Below, piece after piece: positions 9,321 through 28,252 of a stretch of 41,240 nucleotides of DNA. The DNA lies in contig NVWF01000002.1 in assembly GCA_002746155.1 (NCBI GenBank), positions 132 to 41,371 of the forward strand, in the 5' to 3' direction. A model generated the notes under the pieces. It did not search any database and was not told the origin of the DNA. It saw only the letters and a list, made by a program, of their open reading frames with translations. A program made the translations under genes and the position numbers. Numbering within the stretch: the first letter of the stretch is position 1; each line of letters starts with the position of its first letter. Source of the stretch: Gammaproteobacteria bacterium (GTDB taxonomy: Bacteria > Pseudomonadota > Gammaproteobacteria > Enterobacterales > GCA-2746155).

Positions 9321-9992
9321 ATGCAAAATATTACATCTTTTGATCAAGAGCAAATGGCGTCCTTTATAGAAAGAATGCCCGACACCAAATCAGTGACTCA
9401 ATTTAAGGAGTCACCTGAAATTAAACGCTTGTCGTTGAAATTTGATATTGACGAACTTCGTAAGGCAGTAGACAGTATTAGTAAAAATGAAACAGAAAAC
9501 GGTTTCACTTCATTAGGTAGTGGCTTTCATGCTATTTCTCTTTCCCGTCGACCGGGTGCTACTGAGGAAACTGCAAATGATTTAAGTGGGCGCTATTACA
9601 TGCGTACCGATGAAAGTATGATAGAAGAGCCAAGAGAGGATCTTGTACAGGAAATAGAATTTAGTGAATTTAACAGCAACTATCAGGGTAGTTATTTTGA
9701 GTACGTTCATCAAGAGCTTTCTAAGCTCTTTCCAATTGGACGAATGCGAATATTAATGAAAGACCAATATAATTGTAACTCTTGGCACAGAGATCCAGAA
9801 CCTCGGTTGCATATCCCTATTTATACAAATCCAGGTTCGTTATTTATCGTCAATCACCACTGTACACATATGCCAGCAGATGGCTCGGTTTACTTCACGG
9901 ATACCCGAGGCTATCACATGGCTGTTAATGGCGGTGAAACCCAGCGTATACATATTGTTGCTGCTCTTGCTTATCCTCCCATTACCGAGTAA
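9321..9992 (+). CDS. Asp/Asn beta-hydroxylase-like 2OG-Fe(II) oxygenase
   Basis: 223 aa; NSWHRDPEPRLHIPIYTNPGSLFIV...GSVYFTDTRGYHMAVNGGETQRIHIVAAL fits the HxD...H...R arrangement with the RxHIPI motif. Confidence 0.75.
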   Translation: MQNITSFDQEQMASFIERMPDTKSVTQFKESPEIKRLSLKFDIDELRKAVDSISKNETENGFTSLGSGFHAISLSRRPGATEETANDLSGRYYMRTDESMIEEPREDLVQEIEFSEFNSNYQGSYFEYVHQELSKLFPIGRMRILMKDQYNCNSWHRDPEPRLHIPIYTNPGSLFIVNHHCTHMPADGSVYFTDTRGYHMAVNGGETQRIHIVAALAYPPITE

Positions 9993-10025
9993 AAATAACC
10001 GAGTAAAAATTACCAAGTAATTAAA
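9984..10025 (+). repeat. three-copy 14-bp tandem repeat at gene end
   Basis: ACCGAGTAAAAATA / ACCGAGTAAAAATT / ACCAAGTAATTAAA; the first unit contains the stop codon of the 9321-9992 gene. Confidence 0.75.
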
Positions 10026-10029
10026 CCTT

Positions 10030-11109
10030 ATGAATCAAAGTCAATATTCAGCAATGCAGCAAACAGCGCTTGTGTCTAACAATGGCCTTAAACCCGTAGA
10101 TTATAGAAGTGATACAGTGAGCATGCCCAGTGAGGCGATGAAACTTTACGCTGCGTCATGCCCGCTAGGTGATGATGTCTTTGAGGAAGATCCAACCGTC
10201 AAAGCCTTAGAAGAAAAAGTTGCCGATCTGTTGGGAAAACCTGCGGCCTTGTTCTTTCCAACAGGAACACAAAGTAATTTGGCGGCCGTATTAAGCCATT
10301 GCCAAAGAGGTGAAGAAGTGTTGATCGGTGATAACTATCATATCTACCGAGATGAAGCACGAGGTGTTTCCGTACTTGGTGGAGTTACCATGGAAACCAT
10401 GACTACCGATAAAACAGGACGCCTGCTGCTTGAGGATATTAAAGCCGCTATTAAACCAGATGATCCTCATTGTGCAATTACGAGGTTAGTCTGCCTCGAG
10501 AATACTGTTTCAGGTTGCGTGCAAAATCAACAAGAACTCGATGCTATTGCCGATTATGCCCATAAGAATAATTTATCCGTACATCTCGACGGTGCTAGGC
10601 TTTTTAATGCGGCAGCGGCACAGGAAAGTGCCATATCTGACATGGCAAAAAAAGCCGATTCGGTCTCATTATGCCTGTCTAAGGGGCTCGGTACACCAGC
10701 AGGTTCTGTGCTAGTAGGCTCAAGAGATCTAATAAAGAGAGCTAAACGCAACCGTAAGATGCTGGGCGGAGGTATGCGCCAAGTAGGATTTCTAGCAGCC
10801 TGTGGGATTTACGCCTTAGATAACAACGTTAACCGCCTTGTTGATGATCATCGTATTGCCAAACAGTTAGCGAATGAACTGTCCACCATTGAGCAGCTTG
10901 AAGTCGATCTTGACTTAGTTCAGACGAATATGCTGTTTATTCGGCCAAGGGCTAATAATCATCAGCAATTACAAGAGTTTCTTGGTCAGCATAATGTGTT
11001 AATCGGTGGCCAAGTTCCCTTTATTCGTATGGTTACCCATATGGATATTTTGGAAGAAGATGCTGAGCGTACTGTGGATTTATTTAAGCAGTTCTATCAA
11101 GTCAAGTAA
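10030..11109 (+). CDS. ltaE: low-specificity L-threonine aldolase family (beta-hydroxy-amino-acid aldolase)
   Basis: 359 aa; DYRSDTVSMPSEAM, GDDVFEEDPTVKALEEKVADLLGKPAALFFPTGTQSNLAA, HLDGARLFNAA, SLCLSKGLGTPAGSVLVG. Confidence 0.88.
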   Translation: MNQSQYSAMQQTALVSNNGLKPVDYRSDTVSMPSEAMKLYAASCPLGDDVFEEDPTVKALEEKVADLLGKPAALFFPTGTQSNLAAVLSHCQRGEEVLIGDNYHIYRDEARGVSVLGGVTMETMTTDKTGRLLLEDIKAAIKPDDPHCAITRLVCLENTVSGCVQNQQELDAIADYAHKNNLSVHLDGARLFNAAAAQESAISDMAKKADSVSLCLSKGLGTPAGSVLVGSRDLIKRAKRNRKMLGGGMRQVGFLAACGIYALDNNVNRLVDDHRIAKQLANELSTIEQLEVDLDLVQTNMLFIRPRANNHQQLQEFLGQHNVLIGGQVPFIRMVTHMDILEEDAERTVDLFKQFYQVK

Positions 11110-11309: not shown

Positions 11310-12863
11310 ATGGCAAGAAACCCATCTAGGCGTCGTAGTCGTAAGGTTGCTGCAACTAAATCGGTAGCCGTTCATCAAATAGATAAGCGAGTTTTGCGCA
11401 ATCGAATGGCACCCATGGAGCCTCTTGATGAAGAACAACTTGAATTTATTCACGATATGTCCTTACGTATTCTCGAGGAACAGGGCATTGAAGTAATGGG
11501 TGAGCAAGCTCTAAGTCTTTTTCGTGATGCAGGAGCTACGGTTGATGACAATGGCGTGGTTTGTATAGACCGCGATCTGTTACTGCCTATTATTGCACAG
11601 GCACCTGAAACCTTCACAGTCACTCCTCGCAACGCTGAACAGGCAATCCAAGTTGGTGGCAATGTTATCAATTTCGGAATGGTATCTGGCCCCCCTAATG
11701 TCCATGATAATATAAACGGACGACGCATTGGAAACTTCGAAGATTACAAGAAACTGATCAGTTTTGGACAATATTTTAACGTGGTGACGTTTTTCGGAAA
11801 TCAGGCAACAGCTCCGACGGATCTGCCGGTAAACTCACGCCATATGGACACTGTCCTTGCCAACCTAACCTTGTCAGATAAAGTTTTTTTCTCTACTGGA
11901 ATAGGCGGCGGCCGTGCCCGAGATGCCATTGCAATGTCAGCCATTGCCTCAGGCCTCAGTCTCGAAGAAATGAAAAATAACCCCAGCGTGATGACTAACA
12001 TTAACGTCAACTCACCACGAAAACTGGATGATTCAATGGCCTATGGTGCCATGCAAATGGCAATGTACGGACAACCCGTTGCGGTGACTCCTTTTACTTT
12101 AATGGGAGCAATGACACCCACATCAATGGCAGGAGCCTTAGCGCAACAAAATGCTGAAGCTCTTCTCGGTATTGCACTACTACAACTTACCCGACCAGGT
12201 ACGCCGTCAATCTATGGTGCCTTTACTTCAAATGTAGATATGCGCTCTGGAGCCCCAGCTTTTGGTACACCTGAAAACAGCATTGCAAATATTGCAGGTG
12301 GTCAACTGGCAAGGCGTTACAAATTACCTTATAGAACCAGTGCTTGTAATGCATCCAATGCAGTGGATGCCCAATCAATCTATGAAACACAAATGGCTTT
12401 GTGGGGAGCGGTAATGGGCCATGGTAATCTTATCTATCATGCAGCAGGTTGGCTTGAAGGAGGGTTGGTTGCCTCGTTTGAAAAAGTAATAATAGACTGT
12501 GAAATGCTGCAGCAAATGTCTGAGATGCTACAGCCTCTGAAGATTAACCTTGAAGAAACAGGTCTTGAAGCGATGAAAGAAGTTGGCCCTGGAGGTCATT
12601 TTTTAGGTTGTGATCATACGCAGGAACGTTTCAGAGATGCATTTTATTCACCTTTTTTGAGCGATTGGCAGAACTATGAAAGCTGGCAACTAGCGGGTTC
12701 GAAGGATGCCACCCAAAGAGCAACGGAACTCTGGCCAAAAATATTGGCCGACTTCACGCCACCGCCGATAGATGCAGCTATTCAGGAAGAACTTGAGGCT
12801 TATGTGGCAAAACGTAAAGAGTCATTGGGCAAAGAGGAGCCAGACTTAGAACCACATTTTTGA
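11310..12863 (+). CDS. MttB-superfamily (trimethylamine methyltransferase-like) non-Pyl methyltransferase
   Basis: 517 aa uninterrupted; LDEEQLEFIHDMSLRILEEQGIEVMGEQALSLFRDAGA, GPPNVHDNINGRRIGNFEDYKKLI, PSIYGAFTSNVDMRSGAPAFGTPE, AAGWLEGGLVASFEKVIIDCEML. Arg-rich N-terminus. Confidence 0.92.
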   Translation: MARNPSRRRSRKVAATKSVAVHQIDKRVLRNRMAPMEPLDEEQLEFIHDMSLRILEEQGIEVMGEQALSLFRDAGATVDDNGVVCIDRDLLLPIIAQAPETFTVTPRNAEQAIQVGGNVINFGMVSGPPNVHDNINGRRIGNFEDYKKLISFGQYFNVVTFFGNQATAPTDLPVNSRHMDTVLANLTLSDKVFFSTGIGGGRARDAIAMSAIASGLSLEEMKNNPSVMTNINVNSPRKLDDSMAYGAMQMAMYGQPVAVTPFTLMGAMTPTSMAGALAQQNAEALLGIALLQLTRPGTPSIYGAFTSNVDMRSGAPAFGTPENSIANIAGGQLARRYKLPYRTSACNASNAVDAQSIYETQMALWGAVMGHGNLIYHAAGWLEGGLVASFEKVIIDCEMLQQMSEMLQPLKINLEETGLEAMKEVGPGGHFLGCDHTQERFRDAFYSPFLSDWQNYESWQLAGSKDATQRATELWPKILADFTPPPIDAAIQEELEAYVAKRKESLGKEEPDLEPHF

Positions 12864-12933
12864 AGGTGATTCATTGCTCTGATCCTTCTGGAAAGCTCTC
12901 GCATCTCGAATCTCGAATTTCGTCTCTCGTTTA

Positions 12934-12978
12934 GAGGGTAGAGGGTAGAGGGTGAGGGTGAGGGCTGATGGTAGAGGG
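12934..12978 (+). repeat. G-tract repeat with G-quadruplex potential
   Basis: GAGGGTAGAGGGTAGAGGGTGAGGGTGAGGG: five GGG tracts with 3-4 nt loops, followed by another AGAGGG. Confidence 0.7.
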
Positions 12979-12988
12979 TATTTAGAGA

Positions 12989-14317
12989 TTAACTCCAGGG
13001 AAACGGACTGTTAGAAACAGGATGTAATTTCCCCTGTGCATAACGAGAGAATCTAAAAGGTTCTAATAACCTTGAGCTATCACCACAAATCTCTTCAGCA
13101 ACCAACTTTCCTACACCTAACATTTTATAGCCATGGTTTGAATCGGCTATCAGATAGCAATTATCCCTTACCTTATCAAATACTGGAAAACTATCCGGTG
13201 TGAAGGCACCAATGCCACCTGAAGGTTCTTTAGTATTATAGTGGGCTATTTGGCCTGAAAAACGTTTTTGGCAATGGGCTAAAGCTGATACCCACATCTG
13301 TACAAAATCAGTACCTACGATAAACTCAGGTGACTCAGGTCCATAGGGATCAACTTGAACTGAATCGGCATCTTTATCAACAATAAAAGGTGCCGCTCCA
13401 CCTTGAATGCCACCAAAATGGAAATCGGGTTTATAGTAAATACCCCACATTTCATCAGTGATCAGTGAGCCGTCTATGTCAGAATATAATTCAGCAACTG
13501 AATCTACATGAATAACGGGTGGCATTTTTCCATCATTGGTTACCTGTAGCATTGGGTCAACACCCAAGGTTCCTTCCTGTAAAGACCAATAAACCCACAT
13601 GGGAACATCATTCTTTATGACACCCGTATCTGGATTTTTGATGCTGATGGTTTTAGGCATGTCTAACATATCCCAGAAATTTTTGACCCAAGGACCTGCT
13701 CCAATCACAACATAGTCTGTTGTGATCTCACCCTTGTTTGTTTCTACCGCCAATATAGTGCCCTGACTGTCCTGCTTAAAGCCCGTAACCGTGACACCGC
13801 TCATAATTCGAACTCCTTCTGCTTCGAGCTTACTGGCCAGACCATACATGGCCTTGGTGTTATTTGCGTAACCACCTGGCTTCTCATGTAAAACCGATGT
13901 AATGCCTTGGGCTTGCCAGTCATGGAAGATACCTTGCATGTATTTAGTACAATCTTTTTCGCCTTCGATTAACCTAGAGCTGTAGTCAATAGCCTTTTGT
14001 TGTTTATGTATTGAAGCTATGTCTTCATGCATACTCTCACAACTAATCTGCATGTATCCAACTGGATGGTAGCTGTAACTGTCTGGATCACTCTCCCAAA
14101 CGTTAACGCTGTGAGCCATTAGTTCTCTCATTGCTGGTTGAAAGTAATTATTTCGGATAACACCACAGGCAATACCCGTTGCCCCGGCACAAATACCAGA
14201 TTTATCGAGAACTATAATATCACTACCCTTGGTTTTAAGAGCAAGGTGGTAGGCTGTACTTAGGCCATGAATGCCAGCGCCGATGATGATATATTTAGAA
14301 TGACTAGGAAATGCCAT
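12989..14317 (-). CDS. DAO-family FAD-dependent oxidoreductase (sarcosine/dimethylglycine oxidase-like)
   Basis: YIIIGAGIHGLSTAYHLALKT Rossmann motif. Start at 14317 (MAFPSHSK) preferred over the ORF start 14347 because AAGGGAG lies just upstream. Confidence 0.85.
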   Translation of the reverse strand: MAFPSHSKYIIIGAGIHGLSTAYHLALKTKGSDIIVLDKSGICAGATGIACGVIRNNYFQPAMRELMAHSVNVWESDPDSYSYHPVGYMQISCESMHEDIASIHKQQKAIDYSSRLIEGEKDCTKYMQGIFHDWQAQGITSVLHEKPGGYANNTKAMYGLASKLEAEGVRIMSGVTVTGFKQDSQGTILAVETNKGEITTDYVVIGAGPWVKNFWDMLDMPKTISIKNPDTGVIKNDVPMWVYWSLQEGTLGVDPMLQVTNDGKMPPVIHVDSVAELYSDIDGSLITDEMWGIYYKPDFHFGGIQGGAAPFIVDKDADSVQVDPYGPESPEFIVGTDFVQMWVSALAHCQKRFSGQIAHYNTKEPSGGIGAFTPDSFPVFDKVRDNCYLIADSNHGYKMLGVGKLVAEEICGDSSRLLEPFRFSRYAQGKLHPVSNSPFPWS

Positions 14318-14330
14318 GTTTTTTGCTCCC

Positions 14331-14924
14331 TTAGGAAATATTTTCAATGGATTGAGTTATGCTGTGTAAAAATGATTCAGCTGAAGAACGCGGTGACATG
14401 AGTAGGTATTGGTCGTCTGACTCATGCAATATGATGACTGCTAAATGTTCCATGGTAGTTCTGGCCACCGAGCCTTGAGGAAAAGAGGTTTTATATAAAT
14501 CGATGGCACAAATACGTTCTAACGCTGTGCGACAACCTTTACCGCGAATTCTTAACATTACCCAGCTATCTGATTGATCGCATAGATAGACAAGTGCATT
14601 TAATCTTGATTTCACCTGCTCAACAGCACGATTATCTTTATAGTTGAAAAGCATCAAGAATTGCTCAGCCTGCATACCGAGAAATTGAGTATGATCAGTT
14701 TCAGACTTTACTGATAAACCAATTTTTGGAAGAGTCGTATTATAACTTTGCTTAATAGCATCATTAACCTCTTTTCTCTTTCCATTCGGTATTGCAAAAG
14801 AGACTAAGGCTTGATCCTTAACCACTTGTACTGAGATATCACCTAGAGTGAAATATCTCTGATTGAGAGCAGACTGTTCAACTAGCTTAAAATTAGACAC
14901 GCTGCCGTTCTCCTTTCGGATCAA
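14331..14924 (-). CDS. soxG: sarcosine oxidase gamma subunit-like
   Basis: 197 aa; 3' neighbour of soxA-like gene, overlapping it; ...QAEQFLMLFNYKDNRAVEQVKSRLNALVYLCDQSDSWVMLRIRGKGCRTALERICAIDL. Confidence 0.82.
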   Translation of the reverse strand: MIRKENGSVSNFKLVEQSALNQRYFTLGDISVQVVKDQALVSFAIPNGKRKEVNDAIKQSYNTTLPKIGLSVKSETDHTQFLGMQAEQFLMLFNYKDNRAVEQVKSRLNALVYLCDQSDSWVMLRIRGKGCRTALERICAIDLYKTSFPQGSVARTTMEHLAVIILHESDDQYLLMSPRSSAESFLHSITQSIENIS

Positions 14925-17853
14925 TAAAATGTGGAGATACGATCTCTACCTCTAAGGTATTTCCCTGTAAAGGATTACAGGCGTAAACAATTTCTCCAAG
15001 GCGATTATGGCCATTTTTTATAAATCCAAGCCCTACAAAATGCTTAAGTGATGGGGAGAATGTCACCGAAGTCATCCAGCCTTCATCATTAGCTGTTTTG
15101 ACGTCTTTACCTAATGCTACAAAATGAGCACCTGAATCAAGTGTTTTAGTCCGATTAACAGGAATAAATCCAACCAGACGTAATGCATCATCACTATTTA
15201 AACTAATACGTTCAGATAAAACATTGCCAATACTGTCTTTTTTCTTAGACACCATTCGGCCTAATCCAAGATTAAGTGCAGTGGTTTGGCCTGTTAATTC
15301 ATTACCAGCAGCGTGGCCTTTTTCGATACGCATAACACCTAAAGCTTCAGTACCGTAGCTTACGACATCGAACTCTTTACCCGCTTGTATTAGAGCCTCC
15401 ATCAAACTGTTGCCATATCGAGTAGCGACAGCTAACTCGTAGGCTAGTTCGCCTGAGAATGAAATTCGAAACAATCGTGCTGGTGTACCATTGGCAATAG
15501 TAATTTCACCACAGGCCATAAATGGAAAGGATTCGTTACTAATGTCAAATTCTGGGTCGATTATGTTTTGTAAAAGTTTGCGCGCATTAGGTCCGGCGAT
15601 GGCATATTGCGCAAACTGTTCAGTTGCTGACATTAAATGCACATCTAGGTTCGGCCAGAGGCATTGTCGGCAAAATTCCATATGCCTAAATACACCCACA
15701 GCATTGGCAGTAGTGGTGGTCATCAGGTAGTGATCCTTTGAAAGACGGGCAGTGGTACCATCGTCCATTACCATGCCATCTTCTCGCAACATCAAGCCAT
15801 ATCGAACCCTGTTTACTTTTAATGTGGAAAAAGTATTACAGTAAATACGATTTAAAAACTCACCGGCATCACGTCCTTGAATATCGATTTTGCCTAGTGT
15901 ACTGACGTCACAGATACCCACCGAGTTTCTTGTTTGAGTCACTTCACGGTCGACGCTTTGACGCCAAGAGGTTTCACCAGCCTGAGGGAACCACTGTGCA
16001 CGTAACCAAGCGCCTGTTTCGACAAAAACAGCGCCCTTGTTTTCTGCCCATTGGTGACTGGGAGTAAGGCGGGTCGGCCTAAAGGTTTTACCCCTCGCAC
16101 GACCAGCATAAACAGCTAGGGAAACGGGTGTGTAGGGAGGCCTGAACATGGTGGTGCCAATTTCAGGGATTGTTTTACCCATCTTGTCTGCCATCACCGC
16201 CATGGCAGTGATATTACAAGTTTTTCCCTGATCCGTAGCCATGCCAAGTGTGGTATAACGCTTAACATGTTCAACCGAGGTAAAGCCTTCCTGCTGAGCT
16301 AGTCGGATATCTTTAGTGGTGACATCATTTTGAAGATCTAACCAACTTCGTCCAGCTGCGTGTTTTACAAACCAGAAAGCTGAATTTTTGGTTGATTCTT
16401 CATCGGATTTCGCACAATTTTCAATACTAGCTGTATGACCAAGTTCGGCAGAAATTGATTTCGCAGCAGCATATCCACTTTGAAGTGCAGAAGATAGATT
16501 AAGTTCACCCTTTGCAGCCCCTGTAACAACCATACCATAGGGTAATTTTTCAGAGGGAACAAAGGCCAATAAATCTTCACGCCATACAGGTCTGTGATGA
16601 TGATGGCAGCTTAAATGCACGTTCGGATTCCAACCACCTGAAATACCCAGACAATCTGTTTTATAGTGTTTGCCATTAGAAAGAGTAATTGATTTTAGGC
16701 CATGCCGACCTTTTGTATTGATCACCTGAACACCCATTTCAATGGCTGCACCGGGTATATCTATCACAGGATCAATTGAACGTGTATCTACCACAGTTTG
16801 GATGTTAACTCCCTTAGCGATCAGATCAGAAGCAGTGCGCCAGCCATCATCATTATTGGTGAAGATACTGATATTCTTACCTGTAGCCACATCCCATCGA
16901 TTAGCATAACTTCTAACTGCACCGGCTAACATAATTCCAGGTCGGTCATTGTTGGGGAAAGCAATTGATCTCTCCGTAGAGCCTGCGCTCAAAATGGCTC
17001 GTTTTGAATAAATACGCCATAGAATTTGTCTAGGTTTGTTACTAGCAGTAGCTAGATGATCAGTCTTACGTTCAAGAGCACTATAAATACCATGATCATA
17101 AACGCCAAGTATTGTCGTTCTGTTAAGTAGCCGTACATTGGGCATAGCGCCTAATTTAGATAAGGTCTCTCTTGCCCACTGAACTCCACTTAGGCCCGAT
17201 ACAGAATAGGTTTCGCTATTTAAGCGACCACCCATCTCAAAATCTTCCTCAGCAAGGATAATCCTACTTCCGGCTTGAGCCCCAGCCAGAGCAGCGGCTA
17301 ATCCACTTGGTCCTGCACCAATAATCAATATTTCACAATGTAAAAAACCTTTATCATATTGATCAGGATCCTCTTGACCAGATAGCTCACCCAATCCTGC
17401 AGATGAGCGAATAATTGGCTCATAAACTTTTTCCCAGAATGCTTTGGGCCACATAAAGGTTTTGTAGTAAAATCCAGCCGTTAGAAAAGATGAAAATAAG
17501 TCATTAACAGCCATTAAATCGTATTTCAATGAACCACGATGGTTCTGGCTTGTTGCTTCCAGTCCGTCAAAAAGTTCAGTGACAGTTGCTCTTGCATTCG
17601 GTTCTTGATAGGCATTTTTTCTAAGATGCATCAAAGCATTTGGTTCTTCAGATCCTGAGGTAAAAATGCCCCTAGGTCTATGATATTTAAAGGAACGTGC
17701 AACGAATTTTTGCCCATTTGCGAGCAGTGCTGAGGCGAGGGTATCACCTAAATATCCCTCAAAGGTTTTACCATTAAAATTAAAAACACAGGTTTTATCA
17801 CGTTGAATAAGATGACTCTTGTTTCTGTTGTCTATTCGAAACCCTTGATTCAT
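14893..17853 (-). CDS. soxA: sarcosine oxidase alpha subunit-like
   Basis: 986 aa; N-terminal FNGKTFEGYLGDTLASALLANG, ILIIGAGPSGLAAALAGAQAG, C-terminal GcvT-like THF-binding region (GICDVSTLGKIDIQGRDAGEFLNRIY...). Confidence 0.93.
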   Translation of the reverse strand: MNQGFRIDNRNKSHLIQRDKTCVFNFNGKTFEGYLGDTLASALLANGQKFVARSFKYHRPRGIFTSGSEEPNALMHLRKNAYQEPNARATVTELFDGLEATSQNHRGSLKYDLMAVNDLFSSFLTAGFYYKTFMWPKAFWEKVYEPIIRSSAGLGELSGQEDPDQYDKGFLHCEILIIGAGPSGLAAALAGAQAGSRIILAEEDFEMGGRLNSETYSVSGLSGVQWARETLSKLGAMPNVRLLNRTTILGVYDHGIYSALERKTDHLATASNKPRQILWRIYSKRAILSAGSTERSIAFPNNDRPGIMLAGAVRSYANRWDVATGKNISIFTNNDDGWRTASDLIAKGVNIQTVVDTRSIDPVIDIPGAAIEMGVQVINTKGRHGLKSITLSNGKHYKTDCLGISGGWNPNVHLSCHHHHRPVWREDLLAFVPSEKLPYGMVVTGAAKGELNLSSALQSGYAAAKSISAELGHTASIENCAKSDEESTKNSAFWFVKHAAGRSWLDLQNDVTTKDIRLAQQEGFTSVEHVKRYTTLGMATDQGKTCNITAMAVMADKMGKTIPEIGTTMFRPPYTPVSLAVYAGRARGKTFRPTRLTPSHQWAENKGAVFVETGAWLRAQWFPQAGETSWRQSVDREVTQTRNSVGICDVSTLGKIDIQGRDAGEFLNRIYCNTFSTLKVNRVRYGLMLREDGMVMDDGTTARLSKDHYLMTTTTANAVGVFRHMEFCRQCLWPNLDVHLMSATEQFAQYAIAGPNARKLLQNIIDPEFDISNESFPFMACGEITIANGTPARLFRISFSGELAYELAVATRYGNSLMEALIQAGKEFDVVSYGTEALGVMRIEKGHAAGNELTGQTTALNLGLGRMVSKKKDSIGNVLSERISLNSDDALRLVGFIPVNRTKTLDSGAHFVALGKDVKTANDEGWMTSVTFSPSLKHFVGLGFIKNGHNRLGEIVYACNPLQGNTLEVEIVSPHFIDPKGERQRV

Positions 17854-18167
17854 TATTTATCCAACTCAGTTAGCTTTAATGCAACGTCTTTCGCTAGCTC
17901 AACTTGACTTATCTGGTGGGTAGTTGTGTTACGCGTAACTATCAGCCAAGAACGATCGCCTTGTTCGTGAAACCATAATTCGCGGTGTTCACCTGCATGA
18001 TTGTTTCGTAGATATAAATAGTCATGATACTCCTGAATGGCTGTCTGTGACTGTTGCTCATTGGCATCTTCGCCTTTCCAATGGGGCCTATTGATTAGTG
18101 AAGCGTCACCTAAATAGACAAACTCTGATGCGTCGCGGGGACCTAGAAGTGGGTGATTAATCATCAT
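17853..18167 (-). CDS. soxD: sarcosine oxidase delta subunit-like, cysteine-free
   Basis: 104 aa between soxB- and soxA-like genes; HPLLGPRDASEFVYLGDASLINRP...LWFHEQGDRSWLIVTRNTTTHQI. Confidence 0.85.
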   Translation of the reverse strand: MMINHPLLGPRDASEFVYLGDASLINRPHWKGEDANEQQSQTAIQEYHDYLYLRNNHAGEHRELWFHEQGDRSWLIVTRNTTTHQISQVELAKDVALKLTELDK

Positions 18168-18169
18168 GA

Positions 18170-19420
18170 TTAATGTAAATTGGGTTGAGCACCCACTCCT
18201 TTTTCATCAATTATTGCTCCTCTTGAGAAGCGGTCAAGTCTGAAATCTTTAGCTTTTGGGTGTGGCTCATCCGTTGCTAATAAATGGGCATAGCAGAGGC
18301 CACTGGCTGGTGTTGCTTTAAATCCGCCATAACACCAGCCGCCATTGAAATATAAGCCTTTGATGTGGGTGCGATCAATAAAGGGCGAACCATCCATTGA
18401 CATATCAACAACTCCCCCCCAATTACGTAGCAACTTTGCACGACCAATGGCGGGCATTATCGCCATACCGCCTTCACAGACATCCTCAACCACTGGCAGA
18501 CCTCCTCGTTGAGCGTAACTGTTATAACCATCAATATCACCACCAAAAACTAGACCACCCTTATCCGATTGTGAGACATAGAAGTGGCCTGCACCGAAAG
18601 TGATAACACCGGATATAAAGGGTTTTAAACCCTCAGTGACGAATGCTTGAAGTACATGGCTTTCGATGGGTAAGTTGATGCCAGCCAAAGACATGACTCG
18701 ACTGGATGAACCAGCGACACAGACTGCAATTTTATTTGCTGTAATTTGCCCTTTACTCGTATTAACACCCGTGCAGTTGCCGTTAGTGATCTGGAAACCG
18801 GTCACTTCACAATTTTGGATAATATCCACACCACGACTATCGGCACTTCTGGCATAACCCCAGGCCACTGCATCATGTCTAACCGTTCCTCCTCGAGGTT
18901 GCAATAAGCCCCCCTTGATAGGAAATCTTGCATTATCAAAATCAAGATATGGATAGAGTTTGCGCACAGCATCCTGATCGATTAGCTCTGCTCCAGCACC
19001 GGACATGATCATGGCATTGCCACGTCGAACATAGGCATCTCGCTGAGGGTCGCTGTGAAATAAATTTAAGATACCACGCTGAGATACCATGGTATTGAAA
19101 TTGAGTTCCTGCTCTTGGTTTTCCCAGAGTTTCATGGAGTATTCATAGAAGGGTTGGTTTTCTGGTAGCTGATAATTTGAACGTATGATGGTTGTATTGC
19201 GTCCAACATTACCACCGCCTATCCAACCTTTCTCCAGAACAGCAATATTATGCATGCCATACTTACTCGCTAGATAATGTGCGGTGGCTAATCCATGTCC
19301 ACCACCACCGACTATTATGATGTCATAATGTTTTTTTGGTTGAGGACTACGCCACACAGGTTTCCAACCCTTGTGTCCAGTTAAAGACTCTTTAATAACT
19401 TTTAAAGCTGAATAACGCAT
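18170..19420 (-). CDS. soxB: sarcosine oxidase beta subunit-like
   Basis: 416 aa; YDIIIVGGGGHGLATAHYLASKYG, GGTVRHDAVAWGYARSADSRGVDIIQNCEVTGF (keeps the RHDAVAW flavin-attachment histidine context). Confidence 0.93.
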   Translation of the reverse strand: MRYSALKVIKESLTGHKGWKPVWRSPQPKKHYDIIIVGGGGHGLATAHYLASKYGMHNIAVLEKGWIGGGNVGRNTTIIRSNYQLPENQPFYEYSMKLWENQEQELNFNTMVSQRGILNLFHSDPQRDAYVRRGNAMIMSGAGAELIDQDAVRKLYPYLDFDNARFPIKGGLLQPRGGTVRHDAVAWGYARSADSRGVDIIQNCEVTGFQITNGNCTGVNTSKGQITANKIAVCVAGSSSRVMSLAGINLPIESHVLQAFVTEGLKPFISGVITFGAGHFYVSQSDKGGLVFGGDIDGYNSYAQRGGLPVVEDVCEGGMAIMPAIGRAKLLRNWGGVVDMSMDGSPFIDRTHIKGLYFNGGWCYGGFKATPASGLCYAHLLATDEPHPKAKDFRLDRFSRGAIIDEKGVGAQPNLH

Positions 19421-19660
19421 AGTTTCATGTCGGTTTGAGTTTAATCATATATTGTACTGACTATGATCTCAGAAAAGATATTAGTAGGTCTTTGTTATAA
19501 TAGACTTTATATGTTCTAAGAACGACATCACAGGTGGGTAAAATAAATCTATCGTTAGTACTAGAAATTGGCGTCTTCAAGACTGTGTAGGTCGTTTATT
19601 CTCAACTTGATTGTTTTTTTTGAGTTAGTATTACGGTAATAATTTTCTAGGAAAACTCTA

Positions 19661-21349
19661 ATGACTAATAAACAAAAAAAGTACCTATCTGATATTGAAA
19701 TTGCCCGTGAAGCAAATATGCTGCCGATTCAAAATATGGCTGACAAATTAGGCATCCCAGAAGAACATATTATAACCTATGGTAAACATCGTGCAAAAAT
19801 TAGCCGTGCTTATCTTGAATCAGATCGTAAAACTAACAATGGAAAATTAATTTTAGTTGCCGGTATCACACCTACAAAAGCGGGTGAAGGTAAGACCACA
19901 ACATCTGTTGGCTTAGGTGATGGTCTTAATAAGATTGGCAAGAATGTCGCAATTTGTCTAAGGGAACCCTCTCTTGGTCCCTGTTTTGGAATGAAGGGTG
20001 GAGCAGCGGGGGGCGGTCAATCGCAGGTGGTTCCAATGGAAGAAATCAATCTTCATTTTAATGGAGATTTTCACGCCATTGGTGCCGCTCATAATCTGCT
20101 GTCAGCTATGATCGATAATCATATCTATTGGGGTAATGAATTGAACATCGATATTCGTAAAATATCCTGGGGCAGAGTGATGGATATGAATGATCGTGCC
20201 CTAAGAGAAACCACTGCCGCTCTTGGTGGTGTTTTTAATGGCTTTCCAAGAAGTGATCATTTTGATATCACGGTTGCTTCTGAAGTAATGGCTATATTTT
20301 GTCTAGCCAATGATCTTAAAGATTTACAGGAAAGGCTCGGTGAAATTGTTGTTGCAGAATCATTAGATGGCAAAGATATATACGCAAGAGACCTAAAAGC
20401 TGTTGGAGCAATGACAGCATTATTAAAAGATGCCATTCAACCGAACCTCGTACAGACGATGGAAGGAACCCCTTGTTTAATCCATGGAGGACCATTTGCA
20501 AATATTGCACACGGTTGTAATTCTGTTATTGCGACTAGAACGGCGCTTGAACATGCCGATTATGTTGTGACAGAAGCAGGTTTTGGAGCTGATCTTGGTG
20601 CTGAAAAATTTTTTGATATCAAGATGCGACAATCAGGATTGAAGCCTGATATGGCAATCATTGTTGCTACAATCCGCGCTCTAAAAATGCATGGTGGTGT
20701 TGAAGATAATTCTTTATCGTTAGAAAATGTCGAAGCTGTGGAACTAGGTTTTGCCAATCTTAAACGACATGTAATGAACACAAGAAAATTTGGTGTTCCA
20801 GTCATGGTGGCTATCAATAGTTTTGTTGGTGACACTGAGGCAGAAAGAGCATGTTTAATAAAGCTCTGTGAAAAAGTAGGCATTGAAATTGTAGAGTCTA
20901 ATCATTGGGCAGAAGGAAGTTCAGGTAGTGAAGATCTGGCTAAGGCTGTAATAAAAATGTTAGATGAACAACCCAGCAAATTTGATTTTTTGTATAACTC
21001 CCACATTTCACTATGGAACAAAACCCATACAATCGCACTTGAGTTATACGGTGCCGATGACATAATTGCCGATACCAAAGTAAGGGCAAAATTCGCTAAT
21101 TTTCAGAAAAAATATGGTGATCTGCCAGTTTGTATTGCCAAAACTCCCTTATCATTCAGCACCGATCCTCTATTGAAAGGAGCCCCTTCAGGACATGTAA
21201 TACCCATTATGGATCTACGGCTTTCACACGGAGCACGATTTATAGTTGTTATCTGTGGCAATATCATGACTATGCCAGGACTACCCAGACGGCCGGCCGC
21301 AGAAAATATTTATGTGAATGAGCAGGGTTGCATTGAGGGTTTATTTTAA
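19661..21349 (+). CDS. fhs: formate-tetrahydrofolate ligase
   Basis: 562 aa; [72 protein letters not shown]. Confidence 0.97.
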
Positions 21350-21503
21350 ATAATAAGCTTTCCGATGCTATTTCAGCAAAATTTATCAGTCAGCTAGTGA
21401 TTTTGTCGTCAACAGACAAGTCCAAGTCGTTAGTAAGTACAACTGCAAGTCTACTATAGAATAACATTAGCTCGAATATATGTGTTTCCAATGAGGTACC
21501 TTC

Positions 21504-22211
21504 ATGTCCGACGAAAACGCTAATGATGATATTGATCTAAGTGCACTTCCTGATGATGAGCTAGTTGAGCAGATCCAAGATGATCTCTACGATGGACTTC
21601 GCGATGAGGTTATCGAAGGGACTGAAATCCTATTAGAGCGAAAGTGGAAGCCTTCAGATGTACTCACTGAAGCCCTAGTGGGTGGCATGTCAATTGTAGG
21701 TGTGGATTTCCGTGATGGTATTTTATTCGTCCCAGAAGTTCTTTTATCAGCAAATGCAATGAAAGGTGGCATGGCAATTCTTAAACCTTTACTTTCTGAA
21801 TCTGATTCAGTGAGCGCTGGCAAAATGGTCATCGGTACAGTGAAAGGGGACATCCACGATATCGGCAAGAACCTCGTTAAGATGATGATGGAAGGCGGCG
21901 GCTTTGAAGTCATCGATCTTGGCATTAATCAAACGGCAGAAAACTTTTTCGCAGCACTTGAAGAACATAAACCTGATATTTTAGGCATGTCAGCGCTATT
22001 GACAACAACCATGCCATACATGAAGTTTGTTATCGATGAAATGGTGGAAAGAGGGATTCGTGATGACTATATCGTGTTAGTTGGCGGTGCTCCCTTAAAT
22101 CAGGAGTTTGGTGAAGCTGTTGGTGCAGATGCTTATTGCCGTGATGCTGCAACCACAGTCGATACTGCAAAAGAACTACTCGAATTACGTCAGCAAAAAG
22201 TCACAGGTTGA
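21504..22211 (+). CDS. corrinoid (B12-binding) methyl-carrier protein
   Basis: 235 aa; GTVKGDIHDIGKNLVKMMMEGGGFEVIDLG has the DxHxxG cobalamin motif; four-helix N-terminal domain ending in VLLSANAMKGGM. Confidence 0.95.
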   Translation: MSDENANDDIDLSALPDDELVEQIQDDLYDGLRDEVIEGTEILLERKWKPSDVLTEALVGGMSIVGVDFRDGILFVPEVLLSANAMKGGMAILKPLLSESDSVSAGKMVIGTVKGDIHDIGKNLVKMMMEGGGFEVIDLGINQTAENFFAALEEHKPDILGMSALLTTTMPYMKFVIDEMVERGIRDDYIVLVGGAPLNQEFGEAVGADAYCRDAATTVDTAKELLELRQQKVTG

Positions 22212-22218
22212 ATATCCA

Positions 22219-22893
22219 ATGAATCAAATCCTACCTATCATTAATATCATTGCTTGTGGTGCTCTAGCTAAAGAGTTATTTGCACTAAAATCTCTTAATC
22301 AATGGCAACAGATAAATATCACTTGCATACCTGCAAAGTACCACAATACTCCGGCTTTAATACCGGATGCTGTGGAGCATAAAATCATTGACATTAAAAC
22401 AGAAAATGACGGTCAAATATTTGTGGCCTATGGTGATTGTGGTACAGGAGGATTGTTAGATAGCCTACTGGAAAAGCATGATGTTAAACGCTTGCCAGGT
22501 GCACACTGTTATCAGTTTTTTGCAGGGCAAGAAGCATTTGAAGATCTCCAGGAAGACGAATTAGGCACCTACTATCTAACGGATTTTCTCGCTAGTCACT
22601 TTGATAACTTTGTCTGGAAGGCACTGGGCCTTGATAGACATCCTGAGCTACTAGACATGTATTTTTCCAATTATAAAAAGCTCATCTATTTAGCACAAAC
22701 CCACGATGATAAAATCACCGATCTTGCAAGAGAAGGTGCAAAACGCTTAAATTTAAAATTTGAACGCATCTATACAGGATATGGTGATCTGGACTCTAAG
22801 ATAAGCGAAATTCGAATGCAAGAAATACCATCCGTACAAATTCCATCTAGTCACCAAAACCCTTCACTGGATAATGAGCAGACTTATCAATAA
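22219..22893 (+). CDS. DUF1638 domain protein
   Basis: Start moved from the ORF track's 22108 to ATG 22219 (MNQILPIINIIACGALAKEL); VAYGDCGTGGLLDSLLEKHDVKRLPGAHCYQFFAG is DUF1638-like. Confidence 0.85.
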   Translation: MNQILPIINIIACGALAKELFALKSLNQWQQINITCIPAKYHNTPALIPDAVEHKIIDIKTENDGQIFVAYGDCGTGGLLDSLLEKHDVKRLPGAHCYQFFAGQEAFEDLQEDELGTYYLTDFLASHFDNFVWKALGLDRHPELLDMYFSNYKKLIYLAQTHDDKITDLAREGAKRLNLKFERIYTGYGDLDSKISEIRMQEIPSVQIPSSHQNPSLDNEQTYQ

Positions 22894-23372
22894 TGTACTC
22901 ATTACGCCGAGTCATGGTCAGCAATGCTAAAGCAGCATCCAATTTATACCATGCTTTAGAAGCCATACTTGTATTTCTAAACCCTGTTTGGAAATTTGTC
23001 GGTCTAGAGAGAATTGACAAGGCCTTTTCTTTTATTGAGAGAAATATCAAAGGATTATTATTTGATTGTCAAATGTGTGGCTATTGTGTGCTAGACAAAA
23101 CGGGCATGTCTTGTCCAATGAACTGTCCCAAGCAAATTAGGAATGGTCCCTGTGGCGGAGTTCGTGACGATGGCAACTGCGAAGTAAAACCTGAGATGCG
23201 CTGTGTCTGGTTGGAAGCCTGGAGAGGAGCAAAAAAATTAGATCCCAATACAACAGTTGTTCCAGATTTGGAAATTCTTTCACCGGTTGATCAACTCAGA
23301 AAAGGGCACTCATCCTGGTTGATTAAAGTGCAAGAAATACAATCATCAAAGGTTAGCGTAAGCCATGATTGA
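22893..23372 (+). CDS. MetV-like / MTHFR C-terminal-type cysteine-rich protein
   Basis: 159 aa; CQMCGYCVLDKTGMSCPMNCPKQIRNGPCGGVRDDGNCEV; TAATG overlap with the previous gene. Confidence 0.88.
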   Translation: MYSLRRVMVSNAKAASNLYHALEAILVFLNPVWKFVGLERIDKAFSFIERNIKGLLFDCQMCGYCVLDKTGMSCPMNCPKQIRNGPCGGVRDDGNCEVKPEMRCVWLEAWRGAKKLDPNTTVVPDLEILSPVDQLRKGHSSWLIKVQEIQSSKVSVSHD

Positions 23373-24369
23373 AGAAAAAAAATCATCGCCTAAGAGTCTT
23401 TTACCAGGTGATAAGCGCCCGATCCCAGCTGGTCATTCTACCGGTGGTCGATTAGAAGCTGTTTTACGCTCTGGTGGGTTCGCAGTCACTGCTGAAATGG
23501 CTCCTCCAGATTCAGCCGATCCTCAAGATGTCTATGACCGAGCTGCAATGTTTGATGGGGTTGTGGACGCCATTAATGCAACCGATGGCTCTGGTGCTAA
23601 CTGCCATATGTCCAGTATGGGCGTTTGCTCATTACTGACTCGTAAAGGTTATGCCATGGTGATGCAGATATCCTGTCGAGATAGAAACCGAATTGCCATA
23701 CAAGGTGATGTGCTGGGCGCATCTTCAATGAATGTAGCCAACATCCTCTGTCTTAGTGGGGATGGCATCAAAACAGGGGATCATCCAGAAGCCAAAGCAG
23801 TATTTGATTTGGATTCCATGACACTCTTAAAAGTCATCAGGAGGATGCGCGATAAGAGCCAATTTATGAGTGGCAGAAAAATCACAAAAGCACCTGATGT
23901 TTTTATAGGGGCTGCGGCAAATCCCTTTGCAGAGCCTTTAGACTACAGACCTCATCGCCTAGCTAAGAAAGTGGTGGCTGGAGCGCAATTTGTTCAAACA
24001 CAGTACTGTTTTGATATGCCTATTTTTAAAGATTATATGAAACGTGTTGTGGATTTGGGTTTGGCTGAAAAAGTCTTCGTTCTCGCTGGTGTTGGTACCA
24101 TGGTATCTGCGGCTTCTGCTACTTGGATTAGACATAATATACCAGGCATAAATATACCCAATCACATTATTAAGCGTCTCAAAGATTCAAAGAATCCTAA
24201 ACATGAAGGTCAGGAAATTTGCATAGAGATTATGCAACAGCTCAAAGAGATTGAAGGTGTTTCTGGTATACATCTAATGGCCTATCGACAAGAATCAACA
24301 GTAAAAGATATGGTATTAAAATCGGGTATTTTAGATGGCCGAAAACCTTGGCGACCTTCATACAACTAA
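23365..24369 (+). CDS. methylenetetrahydrofolate reductase (MetF family)
   Basis: 334 aa; GGFAVTAEMAPPDSADPQDVYDRAAMFDGVVDAINATDGSGANCHMS...MQISCRDRNRIAIQGDVLGASSMNVANILCLSGD; overlaps the MetV-like gene. Confidence 0.92.
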   Translation: MIEEKKSSPKSLLPGDKRPIPAGHSTGGRLEAVLRSGGFAVTAEMAPPDSADPQDVYDRAAMFDGVVDAINATDGSGANCHMSSMGVCSLLTRKGYAMVMQISCRDRNRIAIQGDVLGASSMNVANILCLSGDGIKTGDHPEAKAVFDLDSMTLLKVIRRMRDKSQFMSGRKITKAPDVFIGAAANPFAEPLDYRPHRLAKKVVAGAQFVQTQYCFDMPIFKDYMKRVVDLGLAEKVFVLAGVGTMVSAASATWIRHNIPGINIPNHIIKRLKDSKNPKHEGQEICIEIMQQLKEIEGVSGIHLMAYRQESTVKDMVLKSGILDGRKPWRPSYN

Positions 24370-24381
24370 AGGTAAATAAAT

Positions 24382-25281
24382 ATGACAACTCGTACACATT
24401 TAAGCTCTCACAGCAAAGAACTCATTATTGGATTTGATCAGCCTTTTACCATGATTGGTGAACGAATTAATCCAACTGGCAGAAAATTGCTAGCTGAGGA
24501 GATGAAAAATGGAGATTACAGTCGCGTAGAAAAAGATACCTTAGCCCAGATGGCTGCAGGTGTACAAATGCTAGATGTAAATGCCGGAATTCCACTGGCA
24601 GATGAACCTAAAATACTTGCTGAAACTATTCAGCTTGTCCAGTCAATTTCAAATTTACCTCTGTGCATTGATTCTTCCATCATCGAAGCACTGGAGGCTG
24701 GGCTTGCGGTTTATCAAGGTAGGGCTCTTGTTAATTCTGTTACAGGTGAGGACGAAAGTCTGGATCGAGTATTGCCACTGGTTAAAAAATACGATGCAGC
24801 GGTGGTGGCTATTTCCAATGATGAAACGGGCATCTCAGAAGATCCCAATGTGCGTTATGAAGTCGCTAAAAAAATCGTTGAGCGTGCCCAAGATTATGGT
24901 ATTGATCCCCAGGATGTTATCGTCGATCCCCTAGTGATGCCGGTAGGTGCAATCAATAGTGCAGGCCTGCAAGTTTTACATTTAATCAGCAGGCTTAGAA
25001 ATGAACTTAAAGTAAACACTACCTGTGGCGCTTCAAATTTCAGTTTTGGTATCCCTAATCGAAATGGCATGAATGCATCATTTATCAGTATGGCAATTGG
25101 AGCTGGAATGACCTCTGCAATTATAAATCCCTTACACTCTGAAGTGGTTCAAGCTGTTAGAGCATCGGATGTTATAATGGGCAAAGACCCTGATTGTTCA
25201 AACTGGCTAGTCAACTATCGTGAAGCCGTACCAGAAGGAACGGGGGGACGTGCAGGACGACGTGCTCGACGTCGTAAATAA
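24382..25281 (+). CDS. methyltetrahydrofolate:corrinoid methyltransferase-like (DHPS-fold)
   Basis: 299 aa; FTMIGERINPTGRKLLAEEM, MLDVNAGIP, LCIDSSIIEALEAGLAVYQGRALVNSVTGE, NTTCGASNFSFGIPNR. Arg-rich C-terminus. Confidence 0.92.
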   Translation: MTTRTHLSSHSKELIIGFDQPFTMIGERINPTGRKLLAEEMKNGDYSRVEKDTLAQMAAGVQMLDVNAGIPLADEPKILAETIQLVQSISNLPLCIDSSIIEALEAGLAVYQGRALVNSVTGEDESLDRVLPLVKKYDAAVVAISNDETGISEDPNVRYEVAKKIVERAQDYGIDPQDVIVDPLVMPVGAINSAGLQVLHLISRLRNELKVNTTCGASNFSFGIPNRNGMNASFISMAIGAGMTSAIINPLHSEVVQAVRASDVIMGKDPDCSNWLVNYREAVPEGTGGRAGRRARRRK

Positions 25282-27335
25282 TGAATAAAGTCAAGGTAGT
25301 CTTTACACCTTCTGGTATACAAGGAGAGGTAGATAAAGACACAGACATTATGACTGCGGCGAATGAGTTAGGCGCTGATATCGCTACACTCTGTGGTGGA
25401 AATGGTCAATGTGCCCGTTGTAAGATCCAAATTAGTAGCGGTGAATTTGCTAAACACAACATCACATCAAAAGTCGAAAACCTCAGTGATGTAACCGATA
25501 TTGAAATCAAACGATTATCAAAATCAGCTTTAGAGCAAGGTTATAGACTTGCCTGTAGGGCCAAAATATTAGCCGATATTGTGGTTGATGTACCTCTAGA
25601 CAGCCAAGTTCACGAACAAGTTATACGTAAACCAGCTACCACTTTGGATAGTGATTTTATATCCAGTGCTGTATCGGCAATTCAACTTATTTATGTCCAG
25701 GTAGAAGAACCTCAGTTGGATAGTCCAACGGGTGACTTGGAGCGTTTAAAACAAGCTATTGAGTCAGAAGTTGGATTAACAAAGCTATCCGTAGAACCTG
25801 CTTTATTGCCACAGCTACAAAATGTGCTCAGAAAGGGCAATTGGCAAGTGACTGTTGCAATCTATGAGCAATCAAAAGTAATCGCTATTTGGCCAAGCAA
25901 ACAGCTTACAGCCTATGGACTAGCCGTTGATATTGGTTCCACAACAATTGTCGGACACCTCTGTGATCTCGAAACAGGCGAAGTATTAGCAACTCATGGC
26001 TTGATGAACCCTCAGATTCGATTTGGTGAGGATCTGATGAGCCGAGTTTCCTATTCCATGATGAACCCTGGTGGTGTTCAACAAATGACAGATATTGTTC
26101 GTCAGAGCATCTGTACCATTGTGGATAAATTACTCTCAAAGTCAAAAGTTGCAAGAGATAAATTGCTTGATGCTGTGTTTGTAGGAAATCCGGTGATGCA
26201 TCATCTTTTTCTCGGTATCGATCCAATTGAACTTGGCGGTGCTCCATTTGCTTTAGCAACCCAAGGTTCAGTTTCACTACCAGCTTCCACTTTAAAATTA
26301 AACCTTGCTGAGGGTGCTCAGATCTATATACCACCCTGTATCGCTGGCCATGTTGGTGCTGATGCTGCAGCTGTACTTTTAGCTGAAAGACCTTATAAGC
26401 AAGGCAAAATCACTTTGATTATTGATGTGGGTACTAATGCTGAAATTATCCTTGGCAATCGAGAAAAGTTAGTTGCGGCTTCATCTCCTACGGGTCCTGC
26501 ATTTGAAGGTGCTCAGATTAATGATGGACAGCGTGCAGCACCTGGAGCCATCGAGCGGGTGCGTATAGATTCTGAAACACTTGAACCAACGATTAAAATT
26601 ATTGGCGTCGACTGTTGGTCAAACGACAAACAGTTTGAGTCAGCCTTAACTAAAAATAGAATTACAGGAATTTGTGGTTCTGGGATCATAGAAGCCATAG
26701 CAAGTTTATTCCTAGTGGGAATCATCAAGCCTGATGGCGTAATCGACGGTGATAAATCGGCGATATCTGATCGCGTGATTAAAAATGGAAAAACATGGGC
26801 TTATCGATTAGTAGACGAGCGCTATGGAGAAAGCTCATCGGTGTTAATCACTCAAAATGATGTCAGAGCCATTCAACTTGCCAAGGCAACGCTTTATGCC
26901 AGTATAAAGTTACTGTTGGCAAAGCTTAAGGGCAAAAATATCGAGAAGATCTGCTTTGCCGGTGCATTTGGTGCCCAGATCGATCCTCTTTATGCAATGT
27001 TATTAGGCATGATCCCCGATTGTTCACTGGATAACCTAGTTTCGGTTGGTAATGCAGCTGGCACAGGTGCTCGAAAAGCCCTGTTATGTACTAAATCGAG
27101 GCGGGAAATAGAGTCTGAAGTTATTAAACTCGAAAAGATTGAGACAGCAGTTGAAGCTAATTTTCAAGAACACTTCATCAATGCAATGGCACTGCCTCAC
27201 AAGGTCGATCAATTTGAGAATCTTGCGAAACTAGTAACAATCCCTCAACAATTATCTGAATCAAGATCTCAAGGAAGAGGAGCCAATAGAAGACGACGTT
27301 CCTCACTTGGAGATCGCTTAAAAAGCTCTCGATAG
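25281..27335 (+). CDS. RACo-like reductive activator of corrinoid proteins (2Fe-2S ferredoxin + ASKHA domain)
   Basis: 684 aa; LCGGNGQCARCKIQISSGEF, AVDIGSTTIVGHLCDLETGEVLA, IPPCIAGHVGADAAAVLLAE, LIIDVGTNAEIILGN. Confidence 0.93.
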   Translation: MNKVKVVFTPSGIQGEVDKDTDIMTAANELGADIATLCGGNGQCARCKIQISSGEFAKHNITSKVENLSDVTDIEIKRLSKSALEQGYRLACRAKILADIVVDVPLDSQVHEQVIRKPATTLDSDFISSAVSAIQLIYVQVEEPQLDSPTGDLERLKQAIESEVGLTKLSVEPALLPQLQNVLRKGNWQVTVAIYEQSKVIAIWPSKQLTAYGLAVDIGSTTIVGHLCDLETGEVLATHGLMNPQIRFGEDLMSRVSYSMMNPGGVQQMTDIVRQSICTIVDKLLSKSKVARDKLLDAVFVGNPVMHHLFLGIDPIELGGAPFALATQGSVSLPASTLKLNLAEGAQIYIPPCIAGHVGADAAAVLLAERPYKQGKITLIIDVGTNAEIILGNREKLVAASSPTGPAFEGAQINDGQRAAPGAIERVRIDSETLEPTIKIIGVDCWSNDKQFESALTKNRITGICGSGIIEAIASLFLVGIIKPDGVIDGDKSAISDRVIKNGKTWAYRLVDERYGESSSVLITQNDVRAIQLAKATLYASIKLLLAKLKGKNIEKICFAGAFGAQIDPLYAMLLGMIPDCSLDNLVSVGNAAGTGARKALLCTKSRREIESEVIKLEKIETAVEANFQEHFINAMALPHKVDQFENLAKLVTIPQQLSESRSQGRGANRRRRSSLGDRLKSSR

Positions 27336-28252
27336 CACTTACTAAAATGAGGGGCGGAAGAAAATCCACATACTAGAGATATCTCTATAATCGGTAGTCC
27401 CGTCTGTAACAATAAACGCTGAGCATTTATCAGTCGTAAATCAAGATAATAACGCGTAGGAGTTGTATTGAGGTGGCTACTAAACAACCTCTCTAACTGC
27501 CGTCTGGAGATATTAACAAGCCCCGAAATTTCATTAGGATTTAGTGGCTCTTCAAGATTAGTTTCCATGAGTTTTACGGCAATTTCTAGTTTAGGTTGAC
27601 TGGTGCCTATCTTCTGCCTAAGTGGAATACACTGGGTATCATTGGTGTTTCGTACTCGCTCAACAATAATCGATTCCATGACAGATGTTGCTATTTCACG
27701 ATCATATTTTAAAGTTATGAGGTGAAACATCATATCAATTGCCGATACTCCCCCGGCGCAGGTGTAGCGATCTCTATCAATGGCATAGATATCATCAGTT
27801 AAGTTTAATTTTGGAAAGATTTCCCTTGTTGAACTGAGGTTTTTCCAGTGGATTGTACAACGATAACCATCCAGCAAACCTGCCTTTGCTAGAATAAAGG
27901 TTCCAGTACAAAGTGCGCCTAAGTCAATGTTTCTTGATTGCATCATTTTCAGGCGTGCTTTGATCGATTCACTCCAAGTCTCGTTGACTTTAATTCCACC
28001 ACAAACAAATAATATATCGCAAATTTCTTTGCCCGTAAAAATTTCGTCGGGCACGATTGCTAATCCAGAACTTGCGTGAATGATGTCGTCAGCTGGGCTT
28101 ATAGTTTGCCAACTGTAGAGGGTTTTACCAGAGATTCGATTCGCTAGTCTCAGTACATCAATTGCCGTGGCATAGGGAACCAATGAGAAGCCTGGCAGTA
28201 CCAAAAATACGTAGTTTATGGGGGAGGGCGGGTCTAGAGTAGATGGCTTCAA
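27269..28252 (-). CDS. GlxA/GbdR-type AraC-family regulator (GATase1-like + HTH)
   Basis: 327 aa; INYVFLVLPGFSLVPYATAIDVLRLANRIS, GALCTGTFILAKAGLLDGYRCTIHWKN, C-terminal HTH ISRRQLERLFSSHLNTTPTRYYLDLRLINAQRLL...FKRSPSEERR. Confidence 0.92.
   Translation of the reverse strand: MKPSTLDPPSPINYVFLVLPGFSLVPYATAIDVLRLANRISGKTLYSWQTISPADDIIHASSGLAIVPDEIFTGKEICDILFVCGGIKVNETWSESIKARLKMMQSRNIDLGALCTGTFILAKAGLLDGYRCTIHWKNLSSTREIFPKLNLTDDIYAIDRDRYTCAGGVSAIDMMFHLITLKYDREIATSVMESIIVERVRNTNDTQCIPLRQKIGTSQPKLEIAVKLMETNLEEPLNPNEISGLVNISRRQLERLFSSHLNTTPTRYYLDLRLINAQRLLLQTGLPIIEISLVCGFSSAPHFSKCYRELFKRSPSEERRLLLAPLP

Follow-up and report, generated by a model that had tools for sequence, protein, structure and literature searches.

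An aerobic MtgBCD-type island in a gammaproteobacterial genome, probably for the breakdown of a methylated amine

This locus raises the question of how a quaternary amine could be demethylated by a corrinoid methyltransferase module that is encoded together with oxygen-using amine oxidases. The whole 41,240-nt stretch analysed, hereafter the window, comes from an assembly of 3.52 Mb in 52 contigs, about 90% complete, in which no SSU rRNA was found. In one block (11310-28252), the first-pass annotation had recognised an MttB-family methyltransferase, a corrinoid carrier, a methyl-THF:corrinoid methyltransferase (MeTr), a RACo-type activator, a methylene-THF reductase (MTHFR) with a MetV-like subunit and a formate-THF ligase (FTHFS), together with soxBDAG, a DAO-family enzyme and a GbdR-type regulator. 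Every gene that it named is an intact open reading frame in its place and matches its family, the corrinoid protein, SoxG and GbdR with scores below the cut-offs. A DUF1638 gene (22219-22893) was missing from its list. We conclude with good confidence that the block is an aerobic MtgBCD-type island for the catabolism of a methylated amine.

First in order, up to 12863, come an MmgE/PrpD protein (plus strand, 6922-8232), a LysR gene and then, on the plus strand, a 2OG-Fe(II) beta-hydroxylase-like protein (9321-9992; similar to Cpz10, PDB 7v4f, E 8e-17), a GntG/threonine-aldolase-like PLP aldolase (10030-11109; NF041359, 407 bits) and the MttB-family non-Pyl methyltransferase (11310-12863; PF06253, 639 bits), the presumed quaternary amine:corrinoid methyltransferase. 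The PrpD protein, the hydroxylase and the aldolase are possible accessories, and the latter two genes (9321-11109) likely form an operon just 5' of MttB. A minus-strand run then extends from 19420 down to 12989. It contains soxB (sarcosine oxidase beta, 18170-19420; TIGR01373, 665 bits, over the cut-off), soxD (delta, 17853-18167; PF04267, 91 bits, over that cut-off and below the NCBIfam one), soxA (alpha, with a GCV_T folate domain, PF01571; 14893-17853; TIGR01372, 1280 bits, over the cut-off), soxG (gamma, 14331-14924; TIGR01375, 55 bits, below the cut-off, assigned with the help of synteny with the congener) and the SoxB-like FAD oxidoreductase of the DAO family (12989-14317; PF01266), whose more likely start is the ATG at 14317. 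With four subunit genes that match their families in one operon, this is a heterotetrameric sarcosine oxidase. The gaps in the soxBDAG-DAO run are -32 to +13 bp, which suggests a single transcript.

The second plus-strand run (19661-27335) starts with FTHFS (19661-21349; PRK13505, 857 bits, over the cut-off), which carries a P-loop. It continues with an mtgC-like corrinoid protein (21504-22211; best matched by MtgC models, MtgC_2 at 212 bits, below the cut-off of 370), the DUF1638 protein (PF07796, 95.6 bits), a MetV-like MTHFR C-terminal-domain protein with 8 cysteines (22893-23372; PF12225), a MetF-like MTHFR (23365-24369; PF02219, 106 bits), an mtgD-like methylcorrinoid:THF methyltransferase (MeTr, 24382-25281; PRK07535, 351 bits, over the cut-off) and a RACo/RamA-like corrinoid reductive activator (25281-27335; PF14574 at 280 bits, PF17651, PF17650 and Fer2). 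MtgC has the motifs DIHDIG (residue 116) and SAL, and RACo has the Fe-S cysteine pattern C38-x5-C-x2-C...C92. From mtgC to RACo the gaps are -8 to +12 bp, so these genes, too, are probably transcribed as one. Facing RACo on the minus strand is a GbdR-like AraC/GlxA regulator (27269-28252; NF052371, 376 bits, below the cut-off of 480). The RACo and GbdR frames converge with an overlap of 67 bp (27269-27335), and a convergent GbdR gene follows RACo in several other genomes as well. Within the window, Rfam gave no riboswitch or other RNA family, a promoter scan stayed at chance level, and terminator-like sites were slightly above chance. By eye, a 170-aa frame at 3298-3810 resembles part of a tyrosine recombinase or integron integrase and looks truncated, and a small frame at 6104-6514 has the appearance of a PIN-domain (VapC-type) protein.

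The aerobic MtgBCD pathway is recognised by this gene content: a pfam06253 methyltransferase, MtgC and MtgD are encoded together, accompanied by a RamA/RACo activator, DUF1638 and a dedicated MTHFR gene, the last presumably acting in the direction of methyl-THF oxidation. RACo-type genes occurred in 22 of the 369 gammaproteobacterial genomes sampled. Of 18 gammaproteobacterial loci compared, 17 have mtgC/DUF1638 followed by mtgD/RACo, and the remaining one is cut by a contig end; MetV and MTHFR lie between the two pairs in 12. A GbdR gene is nearby in 11 of the 18 and an MttB gene in nine. Since other genomes share this operon order, and since the MttB here is the only one found in its genome, the island is not a chance assembly. 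Beyond the Gammaproteobacteria, the operon also occurs on the betaproteobacterial plasmid pAZKH of Azoarcus KH32C, accompanied there by an ABC transporter for glycine betaine (ProV/ProW/ProX), purU, a DMGDH-like oxidoreductase and a regulator of the GlxA family. Another gammaproteobacterial family (f181) combines the mtgC operon with an MttB related to that of the window, a DAO, soxBDAG, GbdR and an osmoprotectant-type ABC transporter. No BCCT transporter was found in the source genome.

In the pathway that we propose, MttB would move one N-methyl group of a quaternary amine onto reduced cob(I)alamin on MtgC, and MtgD would pass it to THF. MTHFR with MetV would oxidise methyl-THF to methylene-THF, which FolD, encoded elsewhere in the genome, and FTHFS would convert to formate and ATP. 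Cobalamin that has become inactive as cob(II)alamin would be restored by RACo with DUF1638. The dimethylated product would be oxidised by the DAO enzyme, by SoxBDAG or by both, first to the monomethyl compound and then to the free amino acid (glycine), and the carbon of glycine could leave via serine and the L-serine dehydratase encoded near the island (39898-41193). GbdR would sense the substrate or a product. This scheme of corrinoid/THF demethylation, oxidative removal of the remaining N-methyl groups and disposal of C1 units via FTHFS, which the first-pass annotation had put forward, finds good support in the genes present, their motifs and conserved order, and in genetic work on Ruegeria and Phaeobacter. 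Loss of mtgC or mtgD abolishes growth of R. pomeroyi on glycine betaine, also when methionine is supplied (Mausz et al. 2025, PMC12478193), and RamA, DUF1638, MetF2 and two MttB-family proteins are upregulated on methylated N-osmolytes (PMC12478193). Genetic data from Phaeobacter connect DUF1638 with the reactivation of B12 (Price et al. 2018, PMC5764234). The novelty implied earlier for a corrinoid module paired with oxygen-dependent oxidases is not supported: work published in 2025 described the aerobic route and reported that mtg genes often lie next to those for the later demethylations in marine Alpha-, Gamma- and Deltaproteobacteria (PMC12478193). The pairing is therefore known, and the island is probably one more member of it.

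What is the substrate of MttB? The gene is one open frame of 517 aa. A pyrrolysine MttB is ruled out by the missing in-frame TAG and by Cys at the position of Pyl334. The protein is similar to MtgB of Desulfitobacterium hafniense (PDB 2QNE/9YCE, E 5e-83). We built a tree of 94 sequences and repeated it without the longest branches. In both trees, the MttBs of the window, of the congener and of family f181 form a clade B (SH-aLRT 100), while seven MttBs adjoining mtgC operons in other Gammaproteobacteria group with PDB 4YYC in a clade A (SH-aLRT 99), and D. hafniense MtgB falls outside both. The active sites differ accordingly when aligned to the M. barkeri MttB residues Pyl334, Tyr364 and Gly110 (PMC9842639). 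Clade A and MtgB mostly have R-[ST]-G-[GS]-[LFM] and Y-G-x-P-F loops with Leu at the Tyr364 position. By contrast, the first loop of clade B is one residue shorter and most often reads R-T-S-A-C-N-A-S-N, the second is mostly S-G-P-P-N-V-H, and 81 of 82 sequences have Tyr at the Tyr364 position. The window MttB is thus homologous to MtgB but not a member of the D. hafniense-type MtgB group, and, given the separate clade and the different loops, homology does not establish glycine betaine as the substrate. The simplest reading in the first-pass annotation, glycine betaine, stays plausible even though the enzyme lies outside both the MtgB lineage and the clade usually paired with the operon; with some reserve, we favour it. 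In openly accessible papers we found nothing on the substrate of a clade-B MttB.

The comparison with the only other genome of the genus (G001) bears directly on this point. There the same island is split between two contigs, whose ends have part of a DMGDH gene in common, and runs in the order PrpD, NhaC-type transporter, LysR, soxGADB, GbdR, MttB, DMGDH, FTHFS and mtgC to RACo, so that DMGDH stands beside MttB where the window has the DAO gene. Identity between the two is 84.5% for FTHFS, 83% for MtgC and for MtgD, 80% for MTHFR, 79% for SoxB, 74% for RACo, 71% for MetV and for SoxD, 69% for DUF1638 and 67% for SoxA. It is low for MttB (50%), GbdR (49.5%) and SoxG (46%). Judged from these sequences, the substrate-facing parts were apparently exchanged or diverged between the congeners, while the core stayed. 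The match to RACo in the congener (L143, contig C78) is interrupted by a single TAA, and the N-terminal part is missing from its longest frame, which points to an assembly error or a damaged gene.

As an alternative, the clade-B enzyme might act on another betaine, for example a longer or hydroxylated one, with the upstream PrpD, beta-hydroxylase and PLP aldolase in the same route, which would end in glycine and an aldehyde. The pocket signature shared by the 82 clade-B sequences and the 50% identity of MttB, against 67-85% for most other island genes, speak for this possibility, and so do the neighbours. We surveyed 86 loci with a clade-B MttB. PrpD lies within 11 kb in 13, directly upstream (41-240 bp) in four; a beta-hydroxylase-like gene adjoins MttB in three (L022, L024, L037), and a GntG-like aldolase is near it in three (L020, L022, L024), the gene orders differing. 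In Oceanospirillaceae-type MAGs, the hydroxylase and aldolase pair lies 3' of MttB in another order (L022 and L024; partly L020 and L037). Nevertheless, with the window counted, each of these two genes recurs in only four loci, and the 200-bp gap 5' of the window MttB is no proof of a single operon. Moreover, at 18 other loci in Rhizobiales, Rhodobacteraceae and Gammaproteobacteria, the next gene after a clade-B MttB, in the same orientation and 11-302 bp downstream, is DMGDH-like, which favours glycine betaine or a similar betaine, and GbdR and soxBDAG beside the window MttB fit glycine betaine as well. Overall, we regard another betaine as the substrate as possible but unlikely. More tentative still is the wider proposal that clade B is a corrinoid methyltransferase subfamily, widespread in aerobic Proteobacteria and so far uncharacterised, acting on a betaine other than glycine betaine, that congeners swap this input enzyme and keep the corrinoid/THF/sarcosine-oxidase core, and that PrpD, the beta-hydroxylase and the PLP aldolase finish the breakdown of the substrate.

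Further context restores part of the case for glycine betaine. GbdR-like genes are near clade-B MttB in 26 of the 86 loci, and on pSymA of S. meliloti a clade-B MttB has genes for a GlxA regulator and an ABC transporter of the glycine betaine type as neighbours. The DMSP lyase gene dddP is found near many of the MttBs most closely related to that of the window (L050:11656-13035, NF043017 at 643 bits, over the cut-off; similar in L003-L016). Genes for osmolyte catabolism thus cluster around these relatives.

Glycine betaine would leave dimethylglycine, and the window DAO is a lone DAO domain; it is not a DMGDH, which needs FAO_M and GCV_T fused to DAO. No FAO_M-type DMGDH was matched in the source genome at its roughly 90% completeness. 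Homologues 68-71% identical to the DAO adjoin soxBDAG in three genomes of family f181, all of which carry the mtgC operon, and a clade-B MttB is beside the homologue in two of the three loci. There was no close match in the PDB and only remote similarity among plasmids, and the predicted structure (mean pLDDT 30) was of no use. A strict substitution of DMGDH by the DAO is not borne out in general: of 20 genomes searched, 19 have FAO_M proteins, those of the DAO-bearing family f181 among them, so that replacement fits the source genome only. Because the DAO coexists with FAO_M proteins elsewhere, its role is a guess; removal of the second methyl group is a reasonable candidate.

The claim that demethylation proceeds without a Rieske oxygenase is correct as far as the window goes; elsewhere in the genome, contig C10 carries the gene for a single GbcA/Stc2-like Rieske protein (PDB matches 3n0q and 3vca). 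This gene adjoins an NhaC-type transporter (L084:8205-10985), and a homologous transporter lies in the MttB island of the congener. The protein and its neighbour lend weight to the idea that the Rieske protein is the real glycine betaine demethylase and that the island serves another methyl donor. We consider that improbable: the protein scores 305 bits with the GbcA model, well below the cut-off of 670, no reductase gene was seen adjoining it, and GbdR and the sox genes are located with MttB, away from the Rieske gene.

A corrinoid operon primarily for methionine synthesis, as a split methionine synthase like that of Phaeobacter inhibens with catabolism secondary, is very improbable and largely refuted, for although homologues of MtgC, MtgD, RamA and DUF1638 are required for methionine synthesis where MetH is absent (PMC12478193, PMC5764234), a full-length MetH frame (1235 aa) is present in the genome and makes a split enzyme unnecessary for methionine, and the operon has MttB, the sox genes, FTHFS and GbdR as neighbours. 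Of the genes suggested for a genome-wide search, folD is present, and bmt/mtgE was not found; the sole homocysteine-methyltransferase domain (PF02574) in the genome lies within MetH. A dual role in methionine synthesis with MtgE, a frequent rather than defining trait of the MtgBCD pathway, is therefore not expected here. About 70% of the published MtgBCD genomes lack MetH (PMC12478193).

An MtgBCD-type island of this kind would extend B12-dependent aerobic breakdown of osmolytes to a lineage that has retained MetH, in which the module can be purely catabolic. The presence of RamA and DUF1638 alongside MetH in some bacteria was left unexplained by Price et al. 2018 (PMC5764234), and a catabolic role is a ready answer. 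The analysis also singles out clade B as a large MttB subfamily open to direct substrate assay.

Among known systems, the island most resembles the aerobic MtgBCD route of Ruegeria pomeroyi and other marine Pseudomonadota, with an MttB-family protein, MtgC, MtgD, RamA, DUF1638 and a dedicated MTHFR, followed by dimethylglycine and sarcosine oxidation, co-located in marine Gammaproteobacteria. It differs in its clade-B MttB, in a DAO replacing DMGDH, in having FTHFS inside the island, and in a genome with complete MetH where MtgE was not found. With the anaerobic MtgB/MtgC/MtgA system of D. hafniense it shares the reaction logic, the protein classes and a homologous methyltransferase, whereas its MttB belongs to another clade with another pocket signature and is coupled to oxygen-using amine oxidases. 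The split methionine synthase of P. inhibens (PMC5764234) likewise has stand-alone corrinoid, pterin-binding, RamA-like and DUF1638 proteins, unlike the present genome, which has MetH and in which a separate homocysteine-binding subunit was not found. Finally, the GbdR-type regulator and soxBDAG recall the GbcAB/DgcAB/SoxBDAG route of Pseudomonas, where the first demethylation is carried out by a Rieske monooxygenase and not, as proposed here, by corrinoid methyl transfer.
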